Shown one piece after another: positions 6,262 through 36,855 of a stretch of 43,108 nt of DNA. The first letter of the stretch is position 1. Each line of letters opens with the position of its first letter. The stretch spans positions 1-43,108 of IMG/VR virus record IMGVR_UViG_3300032331_002702. One strand, written 5' to 3'. This stretch comes from a virus. The notes beneath the pieces are model-generated. The model worked only from the letters and a program-made list of their open reading frames with translations, was not told the DNA's origin and did not search any database. A program made the position numbers and the translations under genes.

Positions 6262-6293
6262 TAAATATATGAATTGGGACTCTGAAAGCCAAA
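6262..6293 (-). promoter_or_regulatory. Early-type 32-bp promoter, TTTG form
   Basis: TTTGGCTTTC at -33, 20-base gap, TATATTTA at -7; drives 6240. Confidence 0.7.
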
Positions 6294-6315
6294 TGTAAAA
6301 TGTCTTTGTAAAAGT

Positions 6316-6347
6316 TAAATATATGTATATACTTTATCGATGTCAAA
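6316..6347 (-). promoter_or_regulatory. Second, upstream promoter for gene at 6240
   Basis: TTTGACATCG, 20-base spacing, TATATTTA. Lacks the GGnTTnC core of other copies, so it may be a plain host-type promoter in tandem with 6262-6293. Confidence 0.5.
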
Positions 6348-6349
6348 GA

Positions 6350-6653
6350 ATTTATAAAAGTCTTAGAGTGTGATATTGTGGAAAGAATGTAAAAGGGGTT
6401 AGATGGAAAACGTGATGTGATGTGTGGGTAGAATACTAGGTTAGGTTAGTTATATAAATATATACACATCGGCCCGTAAAGATCGTATAAGATCTGTGAG
6501 TTGATGGTAATCCCGTAATCCCAACACGTACCGTTATATGGATAATAACGCGCGTGGTCCTATATTACAGGTATATGTGTACGTACGTACGCACCCAGAA
6601 GTACGGAGGTGGGACCTTACGGTCCCGTCCTCCTATAACACACACATTTCTAA
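6350..6653. other. Non-coding region with several hairpins
   Basis: About 300 bases with no supported gene. Richer in G+C than its surroundings between 6470 and 6640. Contains GATC-GTATAA-GATC (6491-6504), a perfect 6-bp stem CGTTAT/ATAACG around 6532-6550, the run gtacgtacgtac near 6580 and a GC-rich stem-loop at 6605-6633. Could be a structured RNA, an origin or a packaging/regulatory site; none can be chosen from sequence alone. Confidence 0.6.
6605..6633 (-). terminator. GC-rich stem-loop after the GRP-motif gene
   Basis: GGGACC-GTAA-GGTCCC core with outer GGAGG/CCTCC arms, 20 bases downstream of stop 6654. No T-run follows, so it may stabilise the mRNA end rather than terminate by itself. 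Confidence 0.5.
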
Positions 6654-7034
6654 TTACGCGTTTTCAGTGCTCGCAACTTCCGCATGTGCGGTGCTTTGAC
6701 TGTTACGAGATGGGCGACCGCGTTTAACTTCAACACCCGATGTTTTAGCTGCTAGTGCCTGTTGGCGTTTACTATTTACATTGACCGGACGGCCTTTACT
6801 TACTGTTCCACCCGCTGCTACCTTCTCGGCGCGTGCGGCTAGTGTCGCTTGACGTTTTGATCCTGCTACAGATGGTCTACCACGTTTCAATTCTCCAGCA
6901 GCACGTTTAGCTTCTCTATCGGCAATTTTCTTCTGGCGAGCGCTGTCAGGATTTGATGGGCGGCCTAATGCCTTTGCTACGTTTGTTTCTACGTTCGCTA
7001 CTGCTGTTACTGTTGATGGTTTTTTCTTACTCAT
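6654..7034 (-). CDS. Tandem GRP-motif (AT-hook-like) basic protein
   Basis: 126 aa, Lys/Arg/Ala-rich with four GRP motifs at residues 24-26, 52-54, 81-83 and 106-108 (e.g. LKRGRPS, SKGRPVN, VKRGRPS), each followed by a SKRQ/SARQ segment. The 28-29-residue period is a clear internal repeat. RGRP cores are the DNA minor-groove contact of AT-hooks, so binding to AT-rich DNA is likely; silencing, compaction or anti-restriction roles are inference. Close paralogue at 9661-9960. Confidence 0.75.
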   Translation of the reverse strand: MSKKKPSTVTAVANVETNVAKALGRPSNPDSARQKKIADREAKRAAGELKRGRPSVAGSKRQATLAARAEKVAAGGTVSKGRPVNVNSKRQQALAAKTSGVEVKRGRPSRNSQSTAHAEVASTENA

Positions 7035-7074
7035 GTGATTTGTGTTTTAAGTGTTTATTATTTATTTTATTTAC

Positions 7075-7106
7075 TGAATATATGATAACATATCCTAGGT
7101 GCCTAA
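7075..7106 (-). promoter_or_regulatory. Early-type promoter for 7034
   Basis: TTAGGCACCT ... TATATTCA, 20-base gap. The TAG of its -33 box is the stop codon of the gene at 7103-7276. Confidence 0.65.
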
Positions 7107-7276
7107 AACTTATACTCACTCTTAATTAATAAAAATGATAAAATCATAGACACGTTAAACGTTGCTAACAAGAACCAGATCATCTCTTCTGTGTTGTTTA
7201 CATCAAACAGGCAAGCAAATGCACAAATTGCTTCTACTAATAATAGTGCGGCGATAATTGTTTTAAGTGTTTTCAT
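7103..7276 (-). CDS. Small two-pass membrane protein, 57 aa
   Basis: MKTLKTIIAALLLVEAICAF forms a first membrane segment, and MIWFLLATFNVSMILSFLLI a second, with a short DVNNTEE loop between. Typical phage inner-membrane peptide; function unknown. Stop codon lies inside the next promoter. Confidence 0.6.
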   Translation of the reverse strand: MKTLKTIIAALLLVEAICAFACLFDVNNTEEMIWFLLATFNVSMILSFLLIKSEYKF

Positions 7277-7293
7277 GTGCTTTTTTATTTGTC

Positions 7294-7325
7294 TAAATAT
7301 ATGTGCTACTATCTTATAAGCCTAA
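7294..7325 (-). promoter_or_regulatory. Early-type promoter for 7276
   Basis: TTAGGCTTAT, 20-base gap, TATATTTA; 17 bases before ATG. Confidence 0.75.
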
Positions 7326-7333
7326 TATCTCTA

Positions 7334-7441
7334 TTAAAATCTAGTTATACTATGAATAATAACACCCGCCATAATAACTCCTAGTAATAACAGTAACAGC
7401 ATATTCATTGTGTCCTGTAATGGATGACGTTCTTTTTTCAT
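7334..7441 (-). CDS. Membrane peptide, 35 aa
   Basis: MKKERHPLQDTMNMLLLLLL then GVIMAGVIIHSITRF: one membrane segment after a charged start. Only 4 bases separate the -7 box from its ATG, so the mRNA would be nearly leaderless. Short, hence moderate confidence. Confidence 0.45.
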   Translation of the reverse strand: MKKERHPLQDTMNMLLLLLLGVIMAGVIIHSITRF

Positions 7442-7445
7442 GCTT

Positions 7446-7477
7446 TAAATATATATTTAAAAATGGGGTAGGCCTAT
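7446..7477 (-). promoter_or_regulatory. Early-type promoter for 7441 with hairpin
   Basis: ATAGGCCTAC ... TATATTTA. A GGGGTGGG/CCTACCCC stem (7465-7490) overlaps the -33 region. Confidence 0.55.
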
Positions 7478-7497
7478 TAAAACCCACCCCTTCCTAA

Positions 7498-7698
7498 TTA
7501 ATCCCTAATATCACTTTCACTTAATAAATCAATTAAATAATCCCTAATATCACTTTCATCCATATCATTAAAAAAATCAAATCCAATCAACCCATAATTA
7601 CCACCCATTACTCCATCATTATCCAAAAACCCATCAACATCATATCCTTCATTACCCAATTCCAATACTATTTTCTTTATTAAATCTTTCTTTTCCAT
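7498..7698 (-). CDS. Small acidic protein, 66 aa
   Basis: MEKKDLIKKIVLELGNEGYD start, acidic throughout. Its C-terminus carries a short tandem repeat (ESDIRDYLIDLLSESDIRD) that is also a near-exact 19-base direct repeat in the DNA at 7499-7518 and 7541-7560, suggesting a recent duplication at the 3' end. Unknown function. Confidence 0.65.
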   Translation of the reverse strand: MEKKDLIKKIVLELGNEGYDVDGFLDNDGVMGGNYGLIGFDFFNDMDESDIRDYLIDLLSESDIRD

Positions 7699-7717
7699 AT
7701 CTTTTTTTTTTATATAT

Positions 7718-7749
7718 TAAATATAAGTTAAGAAATAAAGTAGTCCTAA
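7718..7749 (-). promoter_or_regulatory. Early-type promoter for 7698
   Basis: TTAGGACTAC, 20-base gap, TATATTTA. Confidence 0.7.
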
Positions 7750-7765
7750 CCATATTTGGTTGGTT

Positions 7766-8059
7766 TTAGTTTTTTAATCCTACTTCACCACTTGCTATCC
7801 ATTCTTCAACTGTACAGTAATATTCAATATATGTTGTGTCTGTCCACGTTGACATGTTTTTATATACTTCTGTTTGGGTATAATGGTTCCACGCTGCGGT
7901 TGAATCATAACAGGGCATTTTGAAGAAATCCGTTGTGTATCCTGTTTTTCCTTTACTATCCTGATATTCATGTGTTGCTTTATACATAAATCCTGTTTCG
8001 TCTTTTCTACAAGCAACCATACTTACTATCACTGATGCGAACAATACTATCTTTTTCAT
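7766..8059 (-). CDS. Small lipoprotein of a three-member family
   Basis: 97 aa. MKKIVLFASVIVSMVACRK has a lipobox with Cys17. The mature part shares a plan with 8369-8647 and with the end of 8700-9581: YKATHEY near the acylated Cys, then an aromatic/Thr strand, an EVYKN...D(S/T) stretch and a closing IEYYCTVEEW. Anchored in the envelope by lipid; role unknown, exclusion of other phages is one possibility. Confidence 0.75.
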   Translation of the reverse strand: MKKIVLFASVIVSMVACRKDETGFMYKATHEYQDSKGKTGYTTDFFKMPCYDSTAAWNHYTQTEVYKNMSTWTDTTYIEYYCTVEEWIASGEVGLKN

Positions 8060-8077
8060 GTGCTTTTTTATTTATAG

Positions 8078-8109
8078 TAAATATATGTGCTACTATCTTG
8101 TAAGCCTAA
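8078..8109 (-). promoter_or_regulatory. Early-type promoter for 8059
   Basis: TTAGGCTTAC, 20-base gap, TATATTTA; the element and its surroundings are nearly identical to 7294-7325. Confidence 0.75.
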
Positions 8110-8116
8110 TTCAATC

Positions 8117-8317
8117 TTATTCCCAAGAACGTATCTCTGCTTTAGTTATGTATCCTGGTTGTTCGAAGCCGATCAAATCAACTGCCATTTCACCTGTTGG
8201 TTTACCATTGTAAGTGATCTGATAATTCGGATCCATACCCGAGATCATAATGTGGGCGATTAAATCACCTATCGATTTAAATTCAGCTGTGTAGTAAGAA
8301 CAATTTAATGAGTACAT
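8117..8317 (-). CDS. Unknown protein, 66 aa
   Basis: MYSLNCSYYTAEFKSIGDLI start and a compact mixed composition with GKPTGEMAVDLIGFEQPGY. No signal peptide or membrane segment. Lies between two lipoprotein genes under its own promoter. Not recognised. Confidence 0.65.
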   Translation of the reverse strand: MYSLNCSYYTAEFKSIGDLIAHIMISGMDPNYQITYNGKPTGEMAVDLIGFEQPGYITKAEIRSWE

Positions 8318-8340
8318 AATTTTCTGTTTTTAATTTTAAT

Positions 8341-8372
8341 TAAATATATGATGCCTGATCCTAGAAGCCTAT
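8341..8372 (-). promoter_or_regulatory. Early-type promoter for 8317
   Basis: ATAGGCTTCT ... TATATTTA; its TAG is the stop of 8369-8647. Confidence 0.65.
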
Positions 8373-8647
8373 CGACCCCATTCTGCTGATGTGCAAAAGT
8401 ATTCAATACAGAACGAGTCACACTTGGCGATATTATCCTTATAAGCATCAGTCTGTTTATAAAATTCTAGCGCGGCAACCGAATCCTTTTCATCCCTGAA
8501 GAAAAAGTTAGTGGTAATAGATCCTGATAAATCTCCTCCACTGTAAAGCTTATCCTTATCTATGAAAGAGGCTTTATAAACGTGTCCACTTTTTTTACAG
8601 GCAATCATACTCATAAAAATAGCTGTAACGACAAATAATTTTTTCAT
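8369..8647 (-). CDS. Small lipoprotein of the same family
   Basis: 92 aa. MKKLFVVTAIFMSMIACKK with lipobox Cys17. Mature part: VYKASF after the Cys, FFFRDEKDS in the middle, TDAYKD...CDSF and a closing CIEYFCTSAEWGR, matching the plan of its neighbours. Paralogue of 7766-8059 and of the C-terminal part of 8700-9581. Confidence 0.75.
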   Translation of the reverse strand: MKKLFVVTAIFMSMIACKKSGHVYKASFIDKDKLYSGGDLSGSITTNFFFRDEKDSVAALEFYKQTDAYKDNIAKCDSFCIEYFCTSAEWGR

Positions 8648-8671
8648 GTGTTATAATTTTTTAGTGTATGT

Positions 8672-8703
8672 TAAATATAGGTCGAAGGACCAGGTGAGCC
8701 TAT
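8672..8703 (-). promoter_or_regulatory. Early-type promoter for 8647
   Basis: ATAGGCTCAC ... TATATTTA; its TAG is the stop of 8700-9581. Confidence 0.65.
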
Positions 8704-8963
8704 CGATTTAGTGCCTTCCACTCCTTGCGAGTGCCCCAGTACCTGATTCTTATCGAATCGGCCTTAGATGATAAGGTCCTATAAACTGGCGTCTCATAGT
8801 ACCACTCCCAGTCGGTGGTATCTTTTTTAGACACAAGGACAAAATCCATATTCGCAAGCACACCTACGTTCTCTAGATCCTGGTAGTAGGTGACCTCGTA
8901 AACGTAGGGCGAGCAAGACATCAAACTTGAGGCCAGTACCACCAGAAGGAAAATCTTTTGCAC
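8700..8963 (-). CDS. Possible nested lipoprotein from internal GTG start
   Basis: Val207 of the 293-aa frame is encoded by GTG. Starting there gives MQKIFLLVVLASSLMSCSP, with the lipobox Cys at position 17, exactly as in the three other small lipoproteins of this window (5161, 7766, 8369). The resulting 87-aa protein would be a normal family member. Either it is made separately from an internal start, or the upstream gene has become fused in frame to a former lipoprotein gene. Confidence 0.45.
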   Translation of the reverse strand: MQKIFLLVVLASSLMSCSPYVYEVTYYQDLENVGVLANMDFVLVSKKDTTDWEWYYETPVYRTLSSKADSIRIRYWGTRKEWKALNR

Positions 8964-9581
8964 AGCGCTTTTAACTTTCGAACATAAGGTAAAGGACACT
9001 TCCTTACCTCCTACTGGCTCTATCTCACTTTCCTCAGGCTCAAAGTACCAGCGCTGGTTGTTGTAGTCGGCGACCTCATTTAGCGCGGCAAGTTCCCCGT
9101 AGGAAGTTTTTACGTGCTCGAAGACCTTACTGTAATCTACCTTTCCTTCCTCAAGCACACTACCTAAGAGGTCGGCGAACCAGAAGTTAGAGGCATTGAC
9201 TGTTCCTTGATCTGTAGACACTCCACAGTAGTCGGCCTCTTTAACCTCGCTGATAAACATCCCAGTGTAGAGGCCTTTTAGGCGGTGTCGTTTAACAAAT
9301 TGATCCGCGTTACACCAGATGAAAATACAGTGCTTGTCCCTCAAGAGTGACACTTGCTTTTCGCCTACCGCATACATCCCTTCGCCTATCCTGGAGAAGT
9401 TCAACAGGCCGTAAGGCGAACCATGTCCCATCATCAAAATCTGATCGTGCGCTCGAATTTCCTTCTCCAGGCGGCCTCTGGAAACATCTTTCGTTAAAAC
9501 AGTAGCATCTTTTATATTCTGGTAGATAGGGCGAAGGAAATCTGTTGATCGATCGTCGGGGTGAATGATAAGTGTCCTCAT
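8700..9581 (-). CDS. Clan CD (caspase/CHAT-like) protein fused to a lipoprotein
   Basis: 293 aa. Residues 1-180 have two strand-ending motifs of clan CD cysteine peptidases: ILMMGHGSP (His53) and CIFIWCNAD (Cys90), with YTGMFISEVKEADYC after them. This fits a caspase/CHAT-type His-Cys dyad and is not a known T4 gene. Residues 208-223 form a second hydrophobic segment ending SSLMSC, followed by a domain resembling the neighbouring lipoproteins (VYEVTYYQ...YYETPVYRTL...IRIRYWGTRKEW). The gene is visibly richer in G+C than its neighbours, a sign of recent transfer. Peptidase activity and targets are unknown. Confidence 0.65.
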   Translation of the reverse strand: MRTLIIHPDDRSTDFLRPIYQNIKDATVLTKDVSRGRLEKEIRAHDQILMMGHGSPYGLLNFSRIGEGMYAVGEKQVSLLRDKHCIFIWCNADQFVKRHRLKGLYTGMFISEVKEADYCGVSTDQGTVNASNFWFADLLGSVLEEGKVDYSKVFEHVKTSYGELAALNEVADYNNQRWYFEPEESEIEPVGGKEVSFTLCSKVKSAVQKIFLLVVLASSLMSCSPYVYEVTYYQDLENVGVLANMDFVLVSKKDTTDWEWYYETPVYRTLSSKADSIRIRYWGTRKEWKALNR

Positions 9582-9605
9582 ATGCTGTAATTTTTTACTA
9601 TATTC

Positions 9606-9637
9606 TAAATATAAGGTGAGGGACTTAGGGGCCCTAA
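9606..9637 (-). promoter_or_regulatory. Early-type promoter for 9581
   Basis: TTAGGGCCCC ... TATATTTA. The -33 box sits in the loop of the hairpin 9628-9646. Confidence 0.65.
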
Positions 9638-10008: not shown

Positions 10009-10040
10009 TAAATATATGTAACCGAATCCTGAAAGCCTAA
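10009..10040 (-). promoter_or_regulatory. Early-type promoter for 9960
   Basis: TTAGGCTTTC, 20-base gap, TATATTTA; 48 bases before ATG. Confidence 0.75.
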
Positions 10041-10365: not shown

Positions 10366-10397
10366 TAAATATATGTTACTGAATCCTGTAATCCTAA
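10366..10397 (-). promoter_or_regulatory. Early-type promoter for 10314
   Basis: TTAGGATTAC, 20-base gap, TATATTTA; 51 bases before ATG. Confidence 0.75.
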
Positions 10398-10584: not shown

Positions 10585-10616
10585 TAAATATAAGTTGGAT
10601 TACCCTGTATGCCTAA
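10585..10616 (-). promoter_or_regulatory. Early-type promoter for 10560
   Basis: TTAGGCATAC, 20-base gap, TATATTTA; identical to 10819-10850 over the 32 bases. Confidence 0.75.
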
Positions 10617-10818: not shown

Positions 10819-10850
10819 TAAATATAAGTTGGATTACCCTGTATGCCTAA
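10819..10850 (-). promoter_or_regulatory. Early-type promoter for 10814
   Basis: Exact duplicate of the element at 10585-10616. Confidence 0.75.
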
Positions 10851-11393: not shown

Positions 11394-11425
11394 TAAATAT
11401 ATGAAGGCGAATTTTGAAAGCCAAA
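11394..11425 (-). promoter_or_regulatory. Early-type promoter for 11373 (TTTG form)
   Basis: TTTGGCTTTC, 20-base gap, TATATTTA; GGC/GCC ends could pair. Confidence 0.75.
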
Positions 11426-11656: not shown

Positions 11657-11688
11657 TAAATATATGAAGGCGAACTTAGTAAGCCAAA
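11657..11688 (-). promoter_or_regulatory. Early-type promoter for 11631 (TTTG form)
   Basis: TTTGGCTTAC, 20-base gap, TATATTTA; sister of 11394-11425. Confidence 0.75.
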
Positions 11689-12100: not shown

Positions 12101-12132
12101 TAAATATATGTTAATCTACCCAGTAATCCTAA
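12101..12132 (-). promoter_or_regulatory. Early-type promoter for 12075
   Basis: TTAGGATTAC, 20-base gap, TATATTTA. Confidence 0.75.
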
Positions 12133-12400: not shown

Positions 12401-12432
12401 TGAATATATGTTCTCTTGTTCTGTTTTCCTAG
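12401..12432 (-). promoter_or_regulatory. Early-type promoter for 12374, diverged
   Basis: CTAGGAAAAC ... TATATTCA, 20-base gap. Confidence 0.55.
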
Positions 12433-12757: not shown

Positions 12758-12789
12758 TAAATATATGTTATTTTGTTTTGGAAGCCAAT
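12758..12789 (-). promoter_or_regulatory. Early-type promoter for 12733
   Basis: ATTGGCTTCC, 20-base gap, TATATTTA. Confidence 0.7.
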
Positions 12790-12941: not shown

Positions 12942-12973
12942 TAAATATATGTTAAAAGATTTAGGGGGCCTAA
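12942..12973 (-). promoter_or_regulatory. Early-type promoter for 12917
   Basis: TTAGGCCCCC, 20-base gap, TATATTTA. Confidence 0.7.
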
Positions 12974-13470: not shown

Positions 13471-13502
13471 TAAATATATGTCTTAAGATCTTGAGAGCCT
13501 AT
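13471..13502 (-). promoter_or_regulatory. Early-type promoter for 13447
   Basis: ATAGGCTCTC ... TATATTTA; its TAG ends 13499-13690. Confidence 0.65.
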
Positions 13503-13959: not shown

Positions 13960-13991
13960 TAAATATATGTTAACTTATCCTGTAACCCTAA
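13960..13991 (-). promoter_or_regulatory. Early-type promoter for 13939
   Basis: TTAGGGTTAC, 20-base gap, TATATTTA. It lies entirely within or next to the 3' end of 13975-14277. Confidence 0.7.
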
Positions 13992-14535: not shown

Positions 14536-14567
14536 TAAATATATGTTACTGGATTTTGTAAGCCTAA
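14536..14567 (-). promoter_or_regulatory. Early-type promoter for 14512
   Basis: TTAGGCTTAC, 20-base gap, TATATTTA; its TAG is the stop of 14564-14749. Confidence 0.75.
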
Positions 14568-14761: not shown

Positions 14762-14793
14762 TAAATATATGTTAAGGGGCTTAGTAACCCAAG
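14762..14793 (-). promoter_or_regulatory. Early-type promoter for 14749 with hairpin
   Basis: CTTGGGTTAC, 20-base gap, TATATTTA. Confidence 0.65.
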
Positions 14794-15234: not shown

Positions 15235-15266
15235 TAAATATATGTTCACCTATCCTGTAATCCTAA
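15235..15266 (-). promoter_or_regulatory. Early-type promoter for 15211
   Basis: TTAGGATTAC, 20-base gap, TATATTTA. Confidence 0.75.
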
Positions 15267-16105: not shown

Positions 16106-16137
16106 TAAATATATGTTAGTAAGTTTTGTAAGCCTAA
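16106..16137 (-). promoter_or_regulatory. Early-type promoter for 16082
   Basis: TTAGGCTTAC, 20-base gap, TATATTTA; its TAG ends 16134-16310. Confidence 0.75.
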
Positions 16138-16497: not shown

Positions 16498-16529
16498 TAA
16501 ATATAAGTTAGGGGATTTAGTTATCCAAA
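16498..16529 (-). promoter_or_regulatory. Early-type promoter for 16491 with hairpin
   Basis: TTTGGATAAC, 20-base gap, TATATTTA; hairpin 16511-16534. Confidence 0.65.
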
Positions 16530-17090: not shown

Positions 17091-17122
17091 TAAATATATG
17101 TTTTAAGATCTTGTTAGCCTAA
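17091..17122 (-). promoter_or_regulatory. Early-type promoter for 17072
   Basis: TTAGGCTAAC, 20-base gap, TATATTTA. Confidence 0.7.
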
Positions 17123-17691: not shown

Positions 17692-17723
17692 TAAATATAA
17701 GTTTAAAAACCCAGAAATCCTAA
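17692..17723 (-). promoter_or_regulatory. Early-type promoter for 17669
   Basis: TTAGGATTTC, 20-base gap, TATATTTA. Confidence 0.7.
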
Positions 17724-18567: not shown

Positions 18568-18599
18568 TAAATATAAAAAAGGCCTCCTAGGAGGCCTAA
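18568..18599 (-). promoter_or_regulatory. Early-type promoter for 18543 with perfect palindrome
   Basis: TTAGGCCTCC, 20-base gap, TATATTTA; the spacer is filled by the hairpin 18580-18597. Confidence 0.65.
18580..18597 (-). terminator. Terminator overlapping a promoter
   Basis: Perfect 18-base palindrome AGGCCTCCTAGGAGGCCT followed on the coding strand by TTTTT running straight into the -7 box. Clear intrinsic terminator for 18621-19007. Confidence 0.8.
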
Positions 18600-19029: not shown

Positions 19030-19037
19030 TTATGCTT

Positions 19038-19069
19038 TAAATAAAAGTTAAAAGATTTTGAAAGCCTAA
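19038..19069 (-). promoter_or_regulatory. Early-type promoter for 19007, diverged -7
   Basis: TTAGGCTTTC, 20-base gap, TTTATTTA. Confidence 0.6.
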
Positions 19070-20338: not shown

Positions 20339-20370
20339 TAAATATAAGTTAAAGAGTTTAGGAAGCCTAA
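20339..20370 (-). promoter_or_regulatory. Early-type promoter for 20323
   Basis: TTAGGCTTCC, 20-base gap, TATATTTA. Confidence 0.75.
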
Positions 20371-21280: not shown

Positions 21281-21312
21281 TAAATATATGAACAAGAAAT
21301 CTGAAAGCCTAA
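21281..21312 (-). promoter_or_regulatory. Early-type promoter for 21233
   Basis: TTAGGCTTTC, 20-base gap, TATATTTA; its TAG is the stop of 21309-21434. Confidence 0.75.
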
Positions 21313-23597: not shown

Positions 23598-23629
23598 TAA
23601 ATATAAGTTAAAAGATTTTGTAAGCCAAA
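23598..23629 (-). promoter_or_regulatory. Early-type promoter for 23551 (TTTG form)
   Basis: TTTGGCTTAC, 20-base gap, TATATTTA. Confidence 0.75.
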
Positions 23630-23836: not shown

Positions 23837-23868
23837 TAAATATAAGTTAAAAGATTTTGGAAGCCTAG
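23837..23868 (-). promoter_or_regulatory. Early-type promoter for 23816
   Basis: CTAGGCTTCC, 20-base gap, TATATTTA; 4 bases from the stop of the fibre gene. Confidence 0.7.
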
Positions 23869-23872: not shown

Positions 23873-25822
23873 TTAAACTACTCTAATTTGTATAACGCTT
23901 CCATTTCTGTATAGTCCACCTAGTGGTACTCCACCAGCCGCTGCTGCTGCGTCATTAGCAAAGTTTAGACTTTGTGATACTTGTGTTAGTGTTATTGGTC
24001 CTATTACTTTTAAACTTCCTGTAACATTTAAACTTCCTGTAGTATTTAAACTTCCTGTTATTTTTATTAATTGGCAAGCAATAGTTACATTAGTTCCATT
24101 ATCTGAAATTGCACTATCTTGTAAAGATAATATATTACTACTACCAAATACAGTAGCAACTCTTGGAATAGTATTAACTGTACCTGTTCCTAATATTAAA
24201 GATGTTTGGTATAATTGTCCATTTACAGGATCCCATGACACATACTTCTCTGTATTAGTATCTCGTAATTCAGGTAATCTAATATAATTATAAAGTTGAC
24301 CTCCATCCCAATACTGTCCAATAGCAAGTTCAGTTTTTCTATTATTAGTATTTGTACCATTACCAACTACAAATACATCAAAATAACAAGGTGAAGGATA
24401 TAATGAAGCTGGGTTATTAACAACATTAAATCTTCCTACAACAACTTCACCTTCTGTGTAATTATTGAAAAAGCTACTACCAGTTAATCCTACACCAGCC
24501 ATAAACATACCGGTGTTATCACTTGGATCATTAACTGCTAAACCTTTACCAACTAATAAATTATAATTAGTATCATATATAAAATCAGATGTACTACCAA
24601 AAGTACCACCATTGTTAAATTGAACAGATCTATCTGGTGATGATGGTGTACCTCCTCCTCCTCCATTTAAAGCATAACTTGCTGTTAACGCATAAGAGGA
24701 ACTTATAGATACACTAGAGCTTTGAGCCCAACTACTTGTACCAAATAAACTACCAGAAAAACTTCCACTACCTCCTAAAGCATATGATGCTGTTACTGCT
24801 CTACTAGAACTTAATGCATATGAAGCACTTAAAGCATATGAACTTGATAGAGCATATGAGCTTGATAAAGCATAGGATGAAGTTAAGGCATAACTACTAC
24901 TTAAAGCATATGAGGAGGATATAGATGATGAAGCCCAACTAGCACTTAACGCGTATGAACTTGATAGAGCATAAGATGAACTTACTGTGTAACTAGAAGA
25001 TAAAGCATATGAACTACTTAATGTGTATGAACTACTTCTTGCATATGATGCGCTTAAAGCATATGAGGAACTTAACGCGTATGAAGAACTTATTGTGTAA
25101 CTAGAACTAAGAGCATATGATGAACTTAACGCATAAGAAGCAGATAATGCTGGGTTTGTACTAGTGTAAATTGATCCTGTTACATAAGAAGCAGTTGTAG
25201 CATATGAACTACTTAATGTATAAGATGAACTCACAGCATATGAGGAACTTATAGTGTAAGATGAACTCACAGCATATGAACTACTTAACGCGTATGAACT
25301 ACTTAACGCATATGAGGAACTCACAGTATATGAACTAGATAAAGCGTATGAGCTACTTCTAGCGTATGAGGCACTTAAAGCATAAGATGAACTTAACGCG
25401 TATGAGGAACTTAACGTGTATGAACTACTCACTGAATATGAGGCGCTTAATGCGTAAGATGAACTTATTGCTACACTAGCACTTTGGGCCCAACTAGAAG
25501 TTCCAAATAATGATCCAGTAAAGGATCCTGTGAACGATCCTGAACTAGGAGAGATATCAAATGTTGTTGTATCTCCTTTTTCAAAACGAATTATATTTCC
25601 AGGACTTATTATTGATGCTGTTACAAGAGCATTACCAAATAAATTAGGACCTGTAGTGGTTGATGAAGTATAAAATAACTGTCCTGTAGTAGGATTGTAC
25701 GCTACAAAATTTGTTTGAGAGGAAACAGTTAGTGATTCTAAATATACAGTGCCAGACACTGATAGACTACCTGATACTCTTAAATTTTCAATACTGCCTG
25801 ATGTGGCTATAAATGTAGGCAT
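23873..25822 (-). CDS. Fibre protein with hexapeptide repeats
   Basis: 649 aa. Residues about 120-345 are some 35 copies of a six-residue unit ((S/A)SY(A/T)(L/V)S), for example SSYALSSSYTVS, broken by two short non-repeat stretches. A GSLFGTSSWAQS unit flanks both ends. The C-terminal domain (VPLGGLYRNGSVIQIRVV) has a typical phage fibre ending. Repeats of this kind suggest a long fibrous shaft that carries the receptor-binding tip. Together with 25825-28368 it forms the late fibre operon. Confidence 0.8.
   Translation of the reverse strand: MPTFIATSGSIENLRVSGSLSVSGTVYLESLTVSSQTNFVAYNPTTGQLFYTSSTTTGPNLFGNALVTASIISPGNIIRFEKGDTTTFDISPSSGSFTGSFTGSLFGTSSWAQSASVAISSSYALSASYSVSSSYTLSSSYALSSSYALSASYARSSSYALSSSYTVSSSYALSSSYALSSSYAVSSSYTISSSYAVSSSYTLSSSYATTASYVTGSIYTSTNPALSASYALSSSYALSSSYTISSSYALSSSYALSASYARSSSYTLSSSYALSSSYTVSSSYALSSSYALSASWASSSISSSYALSSSYALTSSYALSSSYALSSSYALSASYALSSSRAVTASYALGGSGSFSGSLFGTSSWAQSSSVSISSSYALTASYALNGGGGGTPSSPDRSVQFNNGGTFGSTSDFIYDTNYNLLVGKGLAVNDPSDNTGMFMAGVGLTGSSFFNNYTEGEVVVGRFNVVNNPASLYPSPCYFDVFVVGNGTNTNNRKTELAIGQYWDGGQLYNYIRLPELRDTNTEKYVSWDPVNGQLYQTSLILGTGTVNTIPRVATVFGSSNILSLQDSAISDNGTNVTIACQLIKITGSLNTTGSLNVTGSLKVIGPITLTQVSQSLNFANDAAAAAGGVPLGGLYRNGSVIQIRVV
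24720..25480. repeat. 18-base repeat array in fibre gene 23873
   Basis: Dense, imperfect repeats of about 18 bases encoding the hexapeptide; silent-site differences between units show they are not freshly copied. Confidence 0.8.
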
Positions 25823-25824
25823 AA

Positions 25825-28368
25825 TTAGTTATTATATGGTGTTGTTATCCAATAAACTTCTCCTGTTAATGGGGTGGTTGAGTTTGTATTAATAGTAAAT
25901 GCGTTTGATACTTTACCTTCTACTGACCATGCTCTACTGTCTTGTCCAGTAACTGTTATAGCATAGTTAGTGTTAGGATATACTGTTGTGAAGTTAACTG
26001 TTGCTTTATAATTATCCGTTCCTCCAGGTCGTGTAAATGTTCCTGCTGCTATTGCTCCTGCTTTTAATGTTGAGACAACCCCATTAAATGATCCAGTAAA
26101 TGAACCTGTAGCTATACCATTAAACGAACCACTAAATGATCCTGATAAATTTGAGTTAGCTCCTGTTAATTGAATTGAGGTAGTACCTGTTATAGTAGTA
26201 CCATTATCTGTTAGACTAGAGTTAGCAAACGCCGTTCCAGTCCATTTAGTTATATTATTTGTTGTTAATCCTGATGCTCCATTAACTGCTACAGTTTGAG
26301 CTGATGCTCCATTATATGAGAAAGCTGTTATACCTGTTCCTTGAGTTAATGAATTACCTAATGCTCCAGCGTTAGGAGCGTATGAGGCACTTAAGGCATA
26401 TGAGGAACTAAGAGCATATGATGAACTTACTGCGTATGAACTACTTAAAGCATAAGATGAACTAAGAGCATATGAAGCACTTGTTACTCTAATAGATTCA
26501 CTAGCAGCGTAAAATAACTGGCCTGATGAATTAAATGTAACAACATTGGTTTGACCAGTATTAGTTAAATTTGGTAAATAAACTGAGTTTGAAATAAATG
26601 TTCTAGTTGCACTAACTCCCAACGCATCTGCTCTTGCTCCAGCACTAGTACCATTACCAACAATAAATAAGTCGGAAGTATTACCTTGGATGTTAAATTT
26701 ACCAACCGCTGTTTGTGCTGATCCTGATGCTACAGTTCCTTGTCCTGATGCATATGAGTAATCTCCTTTAGCTACATTGTTGCCACCATTAACAAATGAA
26801 TATGAACCTGATGCTAAATTACTTGTTCCAAAAGCAGTAGATTGGACTCCAGAAGCAGTTACTGATAATCCAAATGCAAATGATCTGTCTCCTAATGCTA
26901 ATGAATATCCACCACCAACAAAACTGCTAGCTCCTGATGATGAAATAGTATTGTTGTCTCCAATAGCTAATCCTTGTGCTCCATACACATTATTACTTAA
27001 TCCAAATAACGCTGAGTTATTTGCTCCTGATATTATTAAATTAACACCTACTGCTATAGAGTTATTTGCATTAGTCACTGGTACAGTTCCTGCTGCTCCA
27101 CCAACTGCTAAACTACGAGAATTGAATTGATAAAGGAAATTTGAATCTCCTGTAAATAAACCTGCATTATTATATTGAACAGAAAAAGTACTTCCTCCTG
27201 GTGTTGTTGTGGAGGATGGGGCCCAACTAGCACTTAACGCGTAACTAGAAGATAACGCGTATGATCCTGATAATGAATAAGATGATGATAAGGCATATGA
27301 GCTTGATAAAGCATAACTTGAACTTAAAGCGTATGAGCTTGATAAAGCGTATGAACTTGATACAGTGTATGAACTTGATAGGGCATAACTTGAACTTAAA
27401 GCGTATGAAGAACTTACTGTGTATGAACTAGATACAGCGTATGAGCTACTTCTAGCAAATGAAGCACTTAAAGCGTAACTTGAACTAAATGCTATACTAG
27501 CACTTTCTGCCCAACTAGCTGTCCCAACAAATCCAACTGTATTTGCTCCAAATGAAGCAGAAATAGATCCCGATATTTTTTGTGATCCAGTATAATATAA
27601 AGTTTTAGTATCATAATCATAAGTAAATGATCCTGTACCTTTTAACACACTACCTGATACAAATTGTACTTGTTTATCTGTTCCAGATCCTGGATTTGAA
27701 GTTACTGTTAAAGCATTTGATGCTGTATAGTATAATTGACCTGTTGTTGAATTAAAGGTAAGAACATTTGTTTGAGCTGTATTTGTTAGATTAGGTAAAT
27801 AAACTGAGTTTGAAATAAATGTTCTAGTTGCATTTATACCAAAACCATCTGCTCTTGCTCCCGCATTTGCACCTACACCTATTACAAAATAATCAGTTGA
27901 GTTAGAATCCTTATTATATTGACCTGTAGCTTGTTGATAATTAGCAGTAGCAATAGTACCATATCCTTCAGCATGGGAGTATTGTCCATTAGCTACTGTT
28001 AAATAGCCTTCTGAGTGTGCTCCTTCTGCTGCTGCTTGGCTATTCCCTTCAGCATGTGATCCATCTCCACTCGCGATACTGTCTTTTCCTTCAGAATGAG
28101 CATAAGTTGTAGTAGCAGAAGTTCTAAATCCTTCAGCGTGTGAAAATTGACCTGATGCAATTGATCCACTACCATGTGCAAAAGAAGTAGCATTATCTGT
28201 TGTGTTAGATTTACTACCTTGTTTTAAATCAGCATTTATGATAATAGTATTGCTAGCATTTCCGTTTAGGGCATTAATTATCCTATAAACATGTTCCGCG
28301 TAGACTGTTTGTCCATCGACAATAGAATTAGGTGAAGCACCGGAGGCTGTATTTAATGTTGTAGCCAT
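25825..28368 (-). CDS. Fibre protein with YadA-like head and hexapeptide repeats
   Basis: 847 aa. The N-terminal part has head repeats of trimeric-autotransporter type (SHAEGFRTSA, AHSEGKDSIASGDGSHAEGN, YSHAEGYGTIATANYQQATG), which appear again near residues 460-560 (ASGSYSFVNGGNN). Two blocks of SSYALS hexads follow. The C-terminus (VNFTTVYPNTNYAITVTGQD) is a fibre end domain. Starts 2 bases before the second fibre gene. Likely a trimeric tail or adhesion fibre; receptor unknown. Confidence 0.8.
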   Translation of the reverse strand: MATTLNTASGASPNSIVDGQTVYAEHVYRIINALNGNASNTIIINADLKQGSKSNTTDNATSFAHGSGSIASGQFSHAEGFRTSATTTYAHSEGKDSIASGDGSHAEGNSQAAAEGAHSEGYLTVANGQYSHAEGYGTIATANYQQATGQYNKDSNSTDYFVIGVGANAGARADGFGINATRTFISNSVYLPNLTNTAQTNVLTFNSTTGQLYYTASNALTVTSNPGSGTDKQVQFVSGSVLKGTGSFTYDYDTKTLYYTGSQKISGSISASFGANTVGFVGTASWAESASIAFSSSYALSASFARSSSYAVSSSYTVSSSYALSSSYALSSSYTVSSSYALSSSYALSSSYALSSSYALSSSYSLSGSYALSSSYALSASWAPSSTTTPGGSTFSVQYNNAGLFTGDSNFLYQFNSRSLAVGGAAGTVPVTNANNSIAVGVNLIISGANNSALFGLSNNVYGAQGLAIGDNNTISSSGASSFVGGGYSLALGDRSFAFGLSVTASGVQSTAFGTSNLASGSYSFVNGGNNVAKGDYSYASGQGTVASGSAQTAVGKFNIQGNTSDLFIVGNGTSAGARADALGVSATRTFISNSVYLPNLTNTGQTNVVTFNSSGQLFYAASESIRVTSASYALSSSYALSSSYAVSSSYALSSSYALSASYAPNAGALGNSLTQGTGITAFSYNGASAQTVAVNGASGLTTNNITKWTGTAFANSSLTDNGTTITGTTSIQLTGANSNLSGSFSGSFNGIATGSFTGSFNGVVSTLKAGAIAAGTFTRPGGTDNYKATVNFTTVYPNTNYAITVTGQDSRAWSVEGKVSNAFTINTNSTTPLTGEVYWITTPYNN
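27220..27490. repeat. 18-base repeat array in fibre gene 25825
   Basis: About 15 hexapeptide-coding units; a second block of about 6 lies at 26375-26480. Shared sequence with the array in the next gene could allow recombination between the fibres. Confidence 0.75.
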
Positions 28369-28385
28369 TGTATATATCTAGATTT

Positions 28386-28396
28386 TGTTATAAATA
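28386..28396 (-). promoter_or_regulatory. Candidate late promoter for the fibre operon
   Basis: TATTTATAACA, identical to the copy at 2502-2512; 17 bases before ATG 28368. No early-type TTAGG box upstream. Confidence 0.45.
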
Positions 28397-28419
28397 TTAA
28401 AAAAACCTAGAAACGTTCC

Positions 28420-29159: not shown

Positions 29160-29191
29160 TAAATATATGAAAAAAGGCCCGGTAACCCGAG
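29160..29191 (-). promoter_or_regulatory. Early-type promoter for 29138, hairpin form
   Basis: CTCGGGTTAC in place of TTAGG, then TATATTTA at the normal spacing; the -33 box is part of the hairpin 29175-29194. Confidence 0.55.
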
Positions 29192-29473: not shown

Positions 29474-30157
29474 TTAAGGTTTATAAATTTCATCTGCAAA
29501 TCCTAAATCAACTGTTTCTTCTGCTGTTAGGATAGTGTCAAAGTTCAGCATTTCTTTTAATACTGATCTAAGTTCTTCTTTTTTCGTTTCTGCTTTTCTA
29601 GAAAACGTTTTTGGTGAGTCTAGTACACTTGATAGTGTTTTAGCTAAATATCCGTGGCCTTCTTTTTCTTCCTTATCTAACATAGCCTTAAGATAAATGT
29701 TTTCCATATCATGATTTATCCGTCTTTCCTCACTTATCCATTTTTCAATTAACGGTAATGAAGCATCATCAAATGATGTACCACCATAATGTATCATAAA
29801 TCTACTGTTAGGCATTAGGATACGTTTATCAGCGGCTTGTAAAATAATACTACCCATACTCATAGCATAACCATATACTTTAATGGTACAATGACATCTA
29901 GCGTTTTGAATAGCATCAAATATAGCCATTCCATGATACCACTCACCACCTGGATTATTCATGATGATAGTAATTTCATTGTCGTTTTTGGATTCCAATA
30001 CATGTAATCCTTTAATGAAGGATTCGGCCATTAAGTGATCAACTCCAGATTCATATTCTGATGTTCTATCAACTGAACCCATATACAGTACTCTATTTTC
30101 TGTATCTAGGTTATGATTAAACCATTTGTCTATACTCTCTTTTGTTAGTGTTGCCAT
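29474..30157 (-). CDS. clpP: ClpP-like serine protease
   Basis: 227 aa. GYAMSMGSIILQAAD carries the nucleophile serine (Ser100) with its oxyanion glycine, and MIHYGG the catalytic His (His123), as in ClpP. NNPGGEWYHGMAIFDAIQ matches the substrate-strand region. The order and spacing fit ClpP rather than SppA. In phages such proteins usually act as prohead or regulatory proteases. Sits between an acidic protein gene and the ligase gene. Confidence 0.85.
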   Translation of the reverse strand: MATLTKESIDKWFNHNLDTENRVLYMGSVDRTSEYESGVDHLMAESFIKGLHVLESKNDNEITIIMNNPGGEWYHGMAIFDAIQNARCHCTIKVYGYAMSMGSIILQAADKRILMPNSRFMIHYGGTSFDDASLPLIEKWISEERRINHDMENIYLKAMLDKEEKEGHGYLAKTLSSVLDSPKTFSRKAETKKEELRSVLKEMLNFDTILTAEETVDLGFADEIYKP

Positions 30158-31254: not shown

Positions 31255-31286
31255 TAAATATATGTAAAGGAATTAAGTAAGCCAAA
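31255..31286 (-). promoter_or_regulatory. Early-type promoter for 31238 (TTTG form)
   Basis: TTTGGCTTAC, 20-base gap, TATATTTA; 16 bases before ligase ATG, so the ligase-ClpP pair starts here. Confidence 0.75.
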
Positions 31287-33124: not shown

Positions 33125-33156
33125 TTAAATATAAAAAAGAAGGCTCGGTATTCCGA
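33125..33156 (-). promoter_or_regulatory. Early-type promoter for 33110, hairpin form
   Basis: CTCGGAATAC ... TATATTTA at normal spacing; the -33 region is the arm of the terminator 33141-33160. Confidence 0.5.
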
Positions 33157-33160
33157 GCCT
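33141..33160 (-). terminator. Terminator inside promoter element
   Basis: Perfect 8-bp AGGCTCGG/CCGAGCCT stem with a 4-base loop, then TCTTTTTT; 8 bases after stop 33169. Confidence 0.8.
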
Positions 33161-33633: not shown

Positions 33634-33647
33634 ATTGTATAGTTATA

Positions 33648-33658: not shown

Positions 33659-33660
33659 TA

Positions 33661-34176
33661 TTAAGAAACTTGTTTCTTCGGCCTACCTCGTTTACCTGTG
33701 CTATTTTTCTTTTTCTCAACTAGTGCTGTTTCTTTAGCGGCTTTTAACGCAGGATCCATAGGTTTACGTCCTCGTTTACCTCCTGTAGGTACATATACTG
33801 GTAGTGTTTTCTTAAGTGCTGGGTCCATTTTAGGTCTACCACGTTTACCACTAACACCAGTACTTACTTTTTCCTTAACAGCGTTTTGTGCTTTGGAGAA
33901 ATAGCTTTTCATACCTAAATGAAACGGATGTACTATTACTTCATTTAAATTAAAGTTATATATACCTCCATCAGGTCCAAATACTTCAAATCCACCTTGT
34001 GGAAAACCAGGTGAACCAGGTAGGAACTGTTTCCTAAGTTTAAAATACATTTGTGGATCGTCAAAGTGACGAGCCGGTAGTACTCGACATTCAGGTTTAA
34101 AGTTTAGGAATTTTTCCTCAACATCCGTGAAATACTTGTACGGGGGAAATGCTTCTGTATTTTCGTTGATTTTCAT
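33661..34176 (-). CDS. Protein with three C-terminal AT-hooks, 171 aa
   Basis: The first 100 residues are a folded, Phe/Pro-rich domain (FPPYKYFTDVEEKFLNFKPE). The last 65 carry three hook motifs: KRGRPK at 111-116, KRGRKP at 134-139 and KRGRPK at 162-167, in an Ala/Lys linker. Predicted AT-rich DNA binding; it may organise the phage genome or sense host DNA. Confidence 0.7.
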   Translation of the reverse strand: MKINENTEAFPPYKYFTDVEEKFLNFKPECRVLPARHFDDPQMYFKLRKQFLPGSPGFPQGGFEVFGPDGGIYNFNLNEVIVHPFHLGMKSYFSKAQNAVKEKVSTGVSGKRGRPKMDPALKKTLPVYVPTGGKRGRKPMDPALKAAKETALVEKKKNSTGKRGRPKKQVS

Positions 34177-34194
34177 AACTTTTATTTTATACGC

Positions 34195-34226
34195 TAAATA
34201 TACAAAAGAGGACTTGGTAATCCAAG
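34195..34226 (-). promoter_or_regulatory. Early-type promoter for 34176 with hairpin
   Basis: CTTGGATTAC, 20-base gap, TATATTTA. Confidence 0.6.
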
Positions 34227-34229
34227 CCC
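34210..34229 (-). terminator. Hairpin in promoter element
   Basis: GGGCTTGG/CCAAGTCC stem with one G-T pair and 4-base loop, then TCTTTT; 6 bases after stop 34235. Confidence 0.65.
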
Positions 34230-34234
34230 TTAAA

Positions 34235-34570
34235 TTATTTCTTTAGTTTAACACCTCTACCTTTCAAAATATCGGCGTAAGTTACTTTACCATCACCTGT
34301 CAGGTCTGGGAATGATTTTTTCTCATCCATCCCTACTGGTCCAGGTACTTCTTTAGTCATTAAAAAGTTATATACTTCTTCAACATCGTCTTTTGATGTT
34401 GAGATGTGATCAGCAGCCCAGTCATGTCCATTTGCTAAAATAGCGTCAACTGTTTTTTCATCTAATTGAAGCATTTTATCAACTGCGTTTTTAATGATTT
34501 TAAGATTTTCGAAGAACATGTAGCGACCTAATTCTTCTTTAATAAGTTGTTTTAATTCTGATTTTTTCAT
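34235..34570 (-). CDS. Phage protein with EF-hand-like end, 111 aa
   Basis: MKKSELKQLIKEELGRYMFF start (same xLKQLIKEE pattern as 33169) and a C-terminal DLTGDGKVTYADILKGRGVK, which has the Asp/Asn/Gly spacing of a dockerin/EF-hand calcium loop. The type is known from T4-like marine phages. Function unknown; a calcium-stabilised virion part is plausible. Confidence 0.65.
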   Translation of the reverse strand: MKKSELKQLIKEELGRYMFFENLKIIKNAVDKMLQLDEKTVDAILANGHDWAADHISTSKDDVEEVYNFLMTKEVPGPVGMDEKKSFPDLTGDGKVTYADILKGRGVKLKK

Positions 34571-34713
34571 TTACCTTGACCTCTATATGGTTTTTTCCAA
34601 TTTTTACTTGATTTTAAAACGCTTGTTTTTTTCTTACTATGACGACCAGGACGACTGACGCTTTTCTTTATAAGAACTTTAGATGTGTCTTTTGATTTTG
34701 ATTTTGCTGCCAT
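34567..34713 (-). CDS. Small basic conserved protein, 48 aa
   Basis: Ends SSKNWKKPYRGQGK, a motif that I recall from a conserved small protein of T4-like marine phages. Very basic (SKSKDTSKVLIKKSVSRPGR). Overlaps the next ATG (ATGA). Likely nucleic-acid binding; unproven. Confidence 0.65.
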   Translation of the reverse strand: MAAKSKSKDTSKVLIKKSVSRPGRHSKKKTSVLKSSKNWKKPYRGQGK

Positions 34714-34745
34714 TATTTATGTATGTTTTCTATACATATATAAAC

Positions 34746-35063
34746 TTATTTGACAGGTTTTGGTTTGTTTAAGGTTTTAATAGCTTTATCAATTTCAACA
34801 CATTCTTCATACATTTCACGATCTTCGAAATATTTTAAATTTTCTTTAAGAGTTTCGCTAAAATTAGTTCTTTCCAACGTTATATCAAACACTGTATTTT
34901 CTTCTAGGCATTTGACACTTAACACATGAACATTCTTTTTACGCGTTTTTAAGTTGCTTAAAATCGAAGTAACTATAGCCTGTGATATACTAAAGTGTTT
35001 ATTATCTACTAGATCCTGAAACTCGTGGAGTGTCTTAACTTCAAATTCTTTTGGTTTATTCAT
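34746..35063 (-). CDS. Unknown protein with C-terminal UVR-like motif, 105 aa
   Basis: KEFEVKTLHEFQDLVDNKHF start; ends ENLKYFEDREMYEECVEIDK, like the protein at 4682-5104. A helical hairpin of UVR type is likely. The two share only this end. Function unknown. Confidence 0.65.
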   Translation of the reverse strand: MNKPKEFEVKTLHEFQDLVDNKHFSISQAIVTSILSNLKTRKKNVHVLSVKCLEENTVFDITLERTNFSETLKENLKYFEDREMYEECVEIDKAIKTLNKPKPVK

Positions 35064-35065
35064 GA

Positions 35066-35224
35066 TTAAAATAGTTTTAGGAAGTTAGTATTAATTTTCT
35101 TTTCTTTTAATTTTTGTGCTTTCTCATCATTCTTAAGCATCTTAGTGGCTAATTTGTCTAAGTGTTCAGACTTCTGTTTATCGTAGTCTTTAACTAATGA
35201 GTTATGTTTTTTGTTTTTAGCCAT
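35066..35224 (-). CDS. Small basic helical protein, 52 aa
   Basis: MAKNKKHNSLVKDYDKQKSE then LATKMLKNDEKAQKLKEKKI; lysine-rich helix. Two bases before 35063. Unknown. Confidence 0.6.
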   Translation of the reverse strand: MAKNKKHNSLVKDYDKQKSEHLDKLATKMLKNDEKAQKLKEKKINTNFLKLF

Positions 35225-35238
35225 CAATAATAAATATT

Positions 35239-35892
35239 TTAGAATCGTGAAATGAATTCAGAACCATCATCCTCTGATTTAGGTGGTTCATACAATCCTA
35301 ATTCAATTAGACGTTGTTTCTGATAATCGTCCAATTCAAATTCAACCGCTTCACTAGTTCCATACACTGGTGTATGTGTTTCTAGTTGATGAATATCCTT
35401 GTTGTTGAATATTTCACCTATATTAATAAAGTAGCAGTTGTAACATAAGAACCTAATGTTACCTAAGTTATAGTGGTTTGGGTTGTTGTCTTTAAAATCA
35501 AGTATAAGTGGCATTTTATAGTCAGTTAACCGTCTATCATGAAAACCACACATTGCGCATTCTTCTTTTAAGTAACCTTCATCCAACATTTTCTTTTTAA
35601 TGTCTTCAGGTCTAAAATGAACTGCCGCTATTCTACCTTCAATTATGTCCAATACATCCCACTGTGATCTTTTTTCTGGATTGCCAGCTAAGAATTTAGG
35701 TATGCCTTTACCAGCTTGATTTTTATGAATTTCAAATAACGATCTACCACCTTCAAATTCCACATATTGTTTGGCCCATCCCTTATAGTGGATATAAGAA
35801 ACATTCAGATAGCGAGCGGCGGCCTTATTAGACTTGGTCATCCGCATCGCTAACTGGATTTGTTCTTTGGTTAGTGGTTTTGGTTTAGACAT
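35239..35892 (-). CDS. HTH plus HNH-like zinc-binding protein
   Basis: 217 aa. The start (MTKSNKAAARYLNVSYIHYK) looks like a helix-turn-helix. Residues 112-153 hold CxxC...CxxC (Cys112, Cys115, Cys150, Cys153) around YKMPLILDFKDNNPNHYNLG, the layout of an HNH-like zinc finger found in T4-like phages. The catalytic His of a true HNH nuclease is not obvious, so it may only bind DNA. Confidence 0.65.
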   Translation of the reverse strand: MSKPKPLTKEQIQLAMRMTKSNKAAARYLNVSYIHYKGWAKQYVEFEGGRSLFEIHKNQAGKGIPKFLAGNPEKRSQWDVLDIIEGRIAAVHFRPEDIKKKMLDEGYLKEECAMCGFHDRRLTDYKMPLILDFKDNNPNHYNLGNIRFLCYNCYFINIGEIFNNKDIHQLETHTPVYGTSEAVEFELDDYQKQRLIELGLYEPPKSEDDGSEFISRF

Positions 35893-36221
35893 TATTCTAA
35901 ATCTTCAATATCAATATCTTTTATTTCTTCTACCCCATCTAATTCATTCTCTGTTTCTTCTTCTTCTTCAATTTCATTATCTGGGTGAGGAATGTCGTCT
36001 TTTCTTTTACCGTGAAGTTTAAATTCTAGTTCTTTAAATTGTTCAAATTCTTCAGGTTCCATAATCACAATATCATTGTAAGTATGATCACCTTCTCCTA
36101 CAACAATAGTAACACCTGCTTTCTTTCCTGTTGTAGAACAAGAAACACATGTTGTTGCGTTAGGTAAAATTTCTACTCGTTTTGGATGAATTTCTTCTCT
36201 ACATGCTACACATTTTTTCAT
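35892..36221 (-). CDS. DksA/TraR-like zinc-finger protein
   Basis: 109 aa. CVACREEIHPKR and TTCVSC give Cys4, Cys7, Cys25 and Cys28, the spacing of the DksA/TraR zinc ribbon (here at the N-terminus). A long acidic tail follows (EIEEEEETENELDG). TraR-type phage proteins bind the secondary channel of RNA polymerase and alter initiation. Here the coiled coil of DksA is lacking, so that role is inference. Overlaps the next gene by one base. Confidence 0.6.
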   Translation of the reverse strand: MKKCVACREEIHPKRVEILPNATTCVSCSTTGKKAGVTIVVGEGDHTYNDIVIMEPEEFEQFKELEFKLHGKRKDDIPHPDNEIEEEEETENELDGVEEIKDIDIEDLE

Positions 36222-36226
36222 AACCT

Positions 36227-36646
36227 TTATTTTGTATCTGTATCTGTTTCTGGATTAGCTTCTTCAATTTTCTTTAAAAAGTCCCATAAGTCATTAGAAT
36301 TATTTAAATAAACTTCTTCTTCTTCTTGATCTTTTACTTTATATGTTAATGGAACTACTTTATTATCCTCATCAACTCGAGCAAAAACATACCAAAGCAT
36401 AATTTCTGCTTTCCAAAGACCATATTTAAGTAATATAAAACCTTCAATAATCTGATAGAATTGTTCTTCATATTCTAATAGATTAATTTTATATTTTTCA
36501 TAAGTTTCATTTGAACGATTCCAAACCTTAGTAAACATATCCATTGATTCAATGAATAATTCTTTTTCAGTAATTGTTTCTTGTTTTTTGGTTCGTTGTT
36601 TGAACTTTAATTTCTTACCAAAATTATTTAGATTTGGTTTCTTCAT
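36227..36646 (-). CDS. Conserved T4-like marine phage protein, 139 aa
   Basis: A block EEQFYQIIEGFILLKYGLWK, then AEIMLWYVFARVDEDNKVVP and KDQEEEEVYLNNSNDLWDFL: a conserved family I associate with T4-like marine phages. Function unknown. Basic start (KKLKFKQRTKKQE). Confidence 0.7.
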   Translation of the reverse strand: MKKPNLNNFGKKLKFKQRTKKQETITEKELFIESMDMFTKVWNRSNETYEKYKINLLEYEEQFYQIIEGFILLKYGLWKAEIMLWYVFARVDEDNKVVPLTYKVKDQEEEEVYLNNSNDLWDFLKKIEEANPETDTDTK

Positions 36647-36806
36647 AAATTTCTACATTGTATAGATTTGTAAACATTTCTTCTTCCATTTTTTTACGAC
36701 CAGCAAAATAAGTTACAGCATGTTCTTTACAAGAAGCTACTACTTTATCAATTGGTTCTTTTTTGGAATCGTTTTTTACGTAATAGAAATAAGGTTCAAA
36801 TTTCAT
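36624..36806 (-). CDS. Small conserved protein, 60 aa
   Basis: MKFEPYFYYVKNDSKKEPID then YFAGRKKMEEEMFTNLYNVE, a short family seen next to the previous one. Overlaps it by 23 bases. First gene of its operon. Confidence 0.65.
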   Translation of the reverse strand: MKFEPYFYYVKNDSKKEPIDKVVASCKEHAVTYFAGRKKMEEEMFTNLYNVEIYEETKSK

Positions 36807-36823
36807 ATTTTTTTCTTTCTTTA

Positions 36824-36855
36824 TAAATATAGGTTAAAGATTTAGGAAAGCCTAA
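36824..36855 (-). promoter_or_regulatory. Early-type promoter for 36806
   Basis: TTAGGCTTTC, 20-base gap, TATATTTA; its TAG is the stop of 36852-38051. Confidence 0.75.

Follow-up and report, generated by a model that had tools for sequence, protein, structure and literature searches.

A strand-specific array of putative early promoters ahead of small genes in an aquatic lineage of T4-like phages

A 32-bp element that recurs upstream of many tiny phage genes in IMG/VR virus record IMGVR_UViG_3300032331_002702 (positions 1 to 43,108, the whole 43,108-nucleotide stretch analysed here and hereafter termed the window) is a genuine, strand-specific, promoter-like sequence. We consider it probable that it acts as an early promoter of T4-like phages of the Bacteroidota and is read by the host RNA polymerase, with a phage sigma factor serving the late genes thereafter. 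An iterated position weight matrix (PWM), judged against 30 Markov sequences per iteration, recovers 39 strong copies between 6262 and 36855, all on the minus strand and scoring 28.7-51.5; the best plus-strand score is 10.2, which leaves no copy there at the same threshold, and the Markov sequences reach at most 16.3, with none near 28, such that ~0 chance copies are expected. The original prediction, made from the bare sequence, had described about 40 copies of TTAGG(C/A)TT(A/T)C-N14-TATATTTA with a 20-base box spacing in almost all of them; both statements are borne out, and the distance from TT[AT]G to TATATTTA is in fact 20 bases in 39/39 copies. Even the exact pattern TTAGGNTTNC-N{11,17}-TATATTTA finds 12 copies, each with a gap of 14 bases, versus none for the reversed pattern. 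Nearly all copies are intergenic or overlap gene ends; hence, the element is not equally frequent inside genes, a result that would have told against a promoter. The ATG that follows mostly begins 15-25 nt past the TATATTTA of the -7 box. No strong copy lies outside 6.2-36.9 kb, but there are two weaker early-type elements (TATATTAA), also on the minus strand, at 5416-5447 (score 16.4) and 4650-4681 (score 16.9), the latter upstream of a gene group that includes a sigma factor.

The array has two parts. The 36 minus-strand open reading frames (ORFs) between 6.0 and 18.7 kb, with a median length of 72 aa, have 29 elements among them, whereas 10 elements serve 40 ORFs between 18.7 and 36.9 kb, an arrangement of ordinary operons; thus, the proposed layout of one promoter for each gene applies to the first part only. 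Setting aside the copies that are fused to stop codons or hairpins (described below), the dense part comprises the elements at 17692-17723, 17091-17122, 15235-15266, 12942-12973, 12401-12432, 12101-12132, 11657-11688, 11394-11425 (which heads a unit containing a tRNA-Leu), 10819-10850, 10585-10616, 10366-10397, 10009-10040, 8078-8109, 7718-7749, 7294-7325 and 6262-6293, and the sparser part those at 23837-23868, 23598-23629, 20339-20370 and 19038-19069. The copies at 10585-10616 and 10819-10850 are identical at all 32 bases, suggesting a recent duplication of a gene-plus-promoter cassette.

The genes of the window are collinear with those of a related contig, G018, and, more distantly, with the 58.8-80.4 kb region of vB_FspM_immuto_2-6A (NC_055915.1), the Flavobacterium phage immuto, which is a myovirus whose gp20, gp23 and other virion proteins are T4-like. 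By sequence, the window is a member of a large aquatic T4-like phage lineage related to immuto, the host phylum presumably being Bacteroidota, given the host of immuto and the promoter boxes. At the level of DNA similarity, positions 20001-43108 gave only tRNA-sized matches to phage records. The suggested scan of the window and related phages recovers the element as a strand-specific and phage-wide feature: the same family is present in many IMG/VR contigs. These were found through the motif itself, so we also scanned 80 loci chosen, independently of the motif, by homology to the sigma protein of the window; these yielded 132 hits in sense and 13 in antisense, compared with 9 in Markov sequences. 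Related stretches number ~600 or more in IMG/VR for this sigma protein, which argues that the lineage is abundant. Immuto itself carries an array, unannotated in its record, that resembles that of the window in genome region, layout, TATATTTA and spacing, but its box is GTTG[C/G] without GGnTTnC, and TTC precedes its -7 box.

Other genes are preceded, at a distance of roughly 20-40 nt, by a second motif, aATATTTATAA (ATATTTATAA; in immuto, CTATTTATAA), which occurs at 20-39 copies per genome versus 3-5 expected and has neither a -33 box nor any other conserved upstream box. Across seven genomes or large contigs, the 32-bp element gathers in the small-gene block, with scattered copies elsewhere, and the genes downstream of it have median lengths of 79-128 aa, compared with 153-227 aa downstream of the second motif. 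In immuto, the latter lies ahead of the portal, sheath, tube and tape-measure genes: seven of the annotated virion genes have this late-type motif only and two the early element, as against one and 20, respectively, in the small-gene block (Fisher P = 0.00013). Within the window, a late-type motif (TTTAATATTTATAACA, near 28397) occupies 28380-28401 on the minus strand, ~25 nt before an 847-aa tail-fibre-like gene, and a further one (TAATATTTATAA, near 19030) follows the element at 19038-19069. With its many copies gathered ahead of small genes and a late class apart from it, the element shows the pattern of a T4-type early array; it does not have the form of a T4 late promoter, a -10-like box alone with no upstream box, and it is ATATTTATAA that lacks such a box.

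A candidate reader of the late-type motif is encoded at 2519-3223 on the minus strand. This 234-aa protein has homology to sigma region 2 only: it scores 19.5 bits with Sigma70_r2 (Pfam cut-off 24), but 26/30 of its homologues match at E <= 0.1, and 9/30 match phrog_234, 'late sigma transcription factor'. The predicted model (mean pLDDT 75.5, pTM 0.43) has sigma factors, through region 2, as its leading fold matches in the PDB, with no strong E-value, and among viral models it matches sigma factors of phages, one of them from Klebsiella phage KPV15 and, as we take it, of T4 type. A sequence search of the PDB with the sigma profile found no match, nor did the small neighbours of the gene, considered as a gp33-like partner, match any family. 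Homologues are present in immuto and in 9/11 other contigs examined, G002 and G008 being the exceptions. The protein fits a predicted gp55-like late sigma factor, and it is apparently linked to the late motif through their co-occurrence. A further candidate modulator of the polymerase is a DksA-like zinc-finger protein (phrog_54) encoded in the early region at 35892-36221 on the minus strand, the immuto homologue of which is annotated as DnaK suppressor.

The two motifs have ATATTTA in common and both depart from the TTTG of host promoters, while a few sites (36830 and 23843) combine them; conceivably, then, the gp55-like protein reads the element as well, with a separate factor at -33, and early and late motifs are two strengths of a single class. 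We think this very unlikely: the homologues present sigma region 2 only, so no reader of the -33 box is apparent, the motifs segregate by gene class, and the sigma gene is itself downstream of early-type elements.

The original prediction also held that the ends of the element match the Bacteroidota housekeeping promoter, and in this form the statement is not right. Promoters of F. johnsoniae have the form TAHHTTTG, in which the G at -5 is near-invariant, and their -33 box is weak (PMC6847099), and TAHHTTTG is enriched on the sense strand upstream of genes in Arenibacter (19 sense versus 5 antisense) and Flavobacterium (38 versus 17), the corresponding figures for TAHHTTTA (32 versus 24 and 31 versus 19) amounting to a mild enrichment. 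Like promoters of the primary sigma factor of the Bacteroidota, sigma-ABfr (TTTG / TAnnTTTG), the element has two boxes at matching positions, with TT[AT]G as its usual TTTG-like -33 box at fixed spacing, and a TAHHTTT core whose two middle positions avoid G (nearly every copy reads TATATTT). It differs from them in ending TTTA in place of TTTG, in a very strong -33 box with GGnTTnC and in a C at -14. The G at -5 that the host consensus, drawn from F. johnsoniae and the two genomes above, demands is thus missing from 97% of copies, which have A. Upstream of the phage genes, TAHHTTTG has no excess of sense over antisense copies. Consequently, the -7 end is not simply the host consensus. For the onset of infection, no second class of host type can be made out in the sequence, and the element is the only promoter-like class in view. 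The TTTA/TTTG difference offers a clean handle on how a phage may out-compete or re-tune a divergent host sigma factor.

Host genomes were considered as a source of the element and rejected: the bacterial genomes checked are at background, bar one case that resembles a transposable element. This is Flavobacterium NK2020, with 29 near-identical copies (L188 5570-5601 plus another 28 sites of CP051546.1), which seem to belong to a transposable element whose inverted repeat overlaps a similar promoter; several copies of the repeat lie immediately in front of a 482-aa ORF, as though to shut out transcription from outside. Additionally, three loci (L201, L232 and L248) have a TTAGGATT[TA]C...TATATTTA element 22-29 nt before a gene for a 152-155-aa protein starting M[GA]IKSFQG; elements of this type occur in Arenibacter and Algibacter genomes, which suggests that hosts use similar promoters.

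Conservation of the element was said to extend from the -33 box into GGnTTnC, and this is real, albeit specific to part of the lineage. When the only bases fixed were T[AT]G (or C[AT]G) and, at the correct distance, TATATTTA, positions 5-10 in the window carried 2.2, 1.3, 0.7, 0.8, 0.4 and 2.1 bits, where the 99.5% null is 0.27; the C at position 23 (-14), which is conserved in many related contigs, carried 2.0 bits. GG, (C/A), TT and C10 exceed the 99.5% null both in the window and in most related contigs, but GGnTTnC is weak or lacking in G019 and immuto, where TTC directly before the -7 box is conserved instead. Across 16 promoters orthologous between the window and G018, positions 2, 4, 5, 25-30 and 32 are 100% identical and position 10 is 88% identical, as compared with ~50% for the upstream flanks. 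From these identities, together with the weakness or absence of the extension in G019 and immuto, it follows that the extension is under selection, as read from these sequence comparisons, but confined to a sub-lineage.

Such a constraint could also reflect a phage activator or a modified polymerase, as the original prediction allowed. The box TT[AT]GG(C/A)TTAC (-36 to -27) is placed where the MotA box of T4 middle promoters lies (-35 to -26, wwwTGCTTtA; PMC2988021) and shares with it a GCTT or GATT centre, host promoters have a weak -33 box, and the extension differs between lineages, as the site of an activator might. A phage-encoded protein, either of separate origin from MotA or very remotely related to it, may therefore read GGnTTnC and replace sigma region 4 by sigma appropriation, leaving the -7 box to region 2 of the host sigma factor; if so, the arrays would be switched on only once this phage factor is present. 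We hold this to be unlikely. The profiles of MotA and AsiA, the two proteins whose genes would mark T4-type middle promoters, match nothing in 12 records at E <= 1, although such a search might overlook remote forms; the element differs from T4 middle promoters in its conserved TT[AT]GG and in its variation between lineages; immuto lacks the extension despite having the same array; and the element is the sole plausible class for the start of infection, given that host-type TAHHTTTG is unenriched.

The -33 box is frequently merged with the end of the preceding gene. The stop codon of the upstream gene falls within the element in 12/39 copies, and in eight of these it is the TAG of TTAGG or ATAGG: at 36824-36855 (the upstream gene encoding 399 aa), 21281-21312 (upstream of a DUF932 gene), 16106-16137, 14536-14567, 13471-13502, 8672-8703, 8341-8372 and 7075-7106. 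The elements at 31255-31286 (upstream of the DNA ligase gene), 16498-16529, 13960-13991 and 12758-12789 hold the stop codon elsewhere. Moreover, a hairpin of <= -12 kcal/mol spans the box in 23% of copies versus 0.4% of flanking controls, and in immuto, G017, G018 and G019 in 16-18% versus 0%. A clear T-run follows at 34195-34226 (CTTGG-ATTA-CCAAG), 33126-33157 (terminator-like, GGCTCGG-AATA-CCGAGCC), 29160-29191 (terminator-like) and 18568-18599 (upstream of a RecA-like ATPase gene); the strong hairpin at 16498-16529 has a weak T-run, and further strong hairpins enclose the elements at 14762-14793, 9606-9637 and 7446-7477. The fused junction of stop codon, hairpin and -33 box illustrates how a layout of one promoter per gene is fitted into a compact genome. 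It is possible, in addition, that the extension itself is an RNA hairpin or terminator that ends the upstream gene rather than a protein site, an explanation that concerns the extension only and is compatible with any of the other readings: G5 and C10 are able to pair in all copies, and the hairpin at 34226 is maintained in G018 by a two-sided, compensatory change. This we judge unlikely, however, as three quarters of the copies have GGnTTnC without a strong hairpin, and several hairpins lack a T-run, so not all of them need be terminators; furthermore, paired columns of the 39 copies covary no more than their composition predicts (z = 0.4), and pairing alone does not, therefore, explain the extension.

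In the early-promoter reading, which we favour, region 4 of the host sigma-ABfr would contact the -33 region (TT[AT]GG and the lineage-specific extension) and region 2 the extended -7 box (C at -14 and TATATTTA), and the host RNA polymerase would start ~5 nt downstream; that the element is transcribed at all, by this polymerase and at this time, we infer. The many strong copies would allow the phage to seize the host polymerase at once and to express a block of tiny genes, presumably for take-over, in units of one or two, and space would be saved where the -33 box takes in the upstream stop codon or a terminator-like hairpin. At a later stage, the gp55-like phage sigma factor would displace the host sigma factor and read the -33-less ATATTTATAA before the virion genes. 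T4 provides the precedent for such a programme, its early arrays and gp55-type late promoters being already known (PMC2988021): as with the 'uber' early promoters of T4, which are read by E. coli sigma-70, there are many copies, clustered small early genes, a consensus that exceeds the host boxes and a distinct late class served by a gp55-type sigma factor (PMC2988021). The element departs from the T4 early promoters in having Bacteroidota -33/-7 boxes in place of -35/-10, A rather than G at the last -7 position, and a stop codon or hairpin folded into its -33 box; its reading by the host polymerase is predicted.

Several observations weigh against this reading. The -7 box of the phage has A at -5 in 97% of copies, where the host has its near-invariant G; a strong -33 box with an extension is not seen in F. 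johnsoniae promoters; and, since the late motif and the early -7 box share ATATTTA, a single phage factor reading both is conceivable. In favour of the reading, a bacterial-type, multisubunit RNA polymerase (beta-prime subunit) was not detected. A search for a single-subunit, T7-type enzyme found no match, but its positive control was equally silent, so a phage polymerase may yet exist.

In the open-licence literature, we found no paper on the promoters of this lineage, no T4-like phage of the Bacteroidota described with an early array of such sequence, and neither the TTTA -7 box, nor the lineage-specific extension, nor the fusion of stop codon, hairpin and -33 box. To our knowledge, the transcription programmes of T4-like phages beyond those of Proteobacteria and cyanobacteria are hardly known. 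The two motif classes supply timing hypotheses for hundreds of uncharacterised genes, and the elements are strong candidate promoters for Bacteroidota genetics.

Other genes of the window include one at 29474-30157 on the minus strand that encodes a head maturation or ClpP-like protease; it adjoins the DNA ligase gene and is 96% identical in G018. Beyond the array, 36852-43009 is a block of glycosyltransferase-type genes without early elements, and the genes past 38023 lack homologues in the related contigs that were compared. Finally, two tail-fibre-like proteins with long SSSYALSSSYALSASYA repeats are encoded at 23873-28368 on the minus strand.

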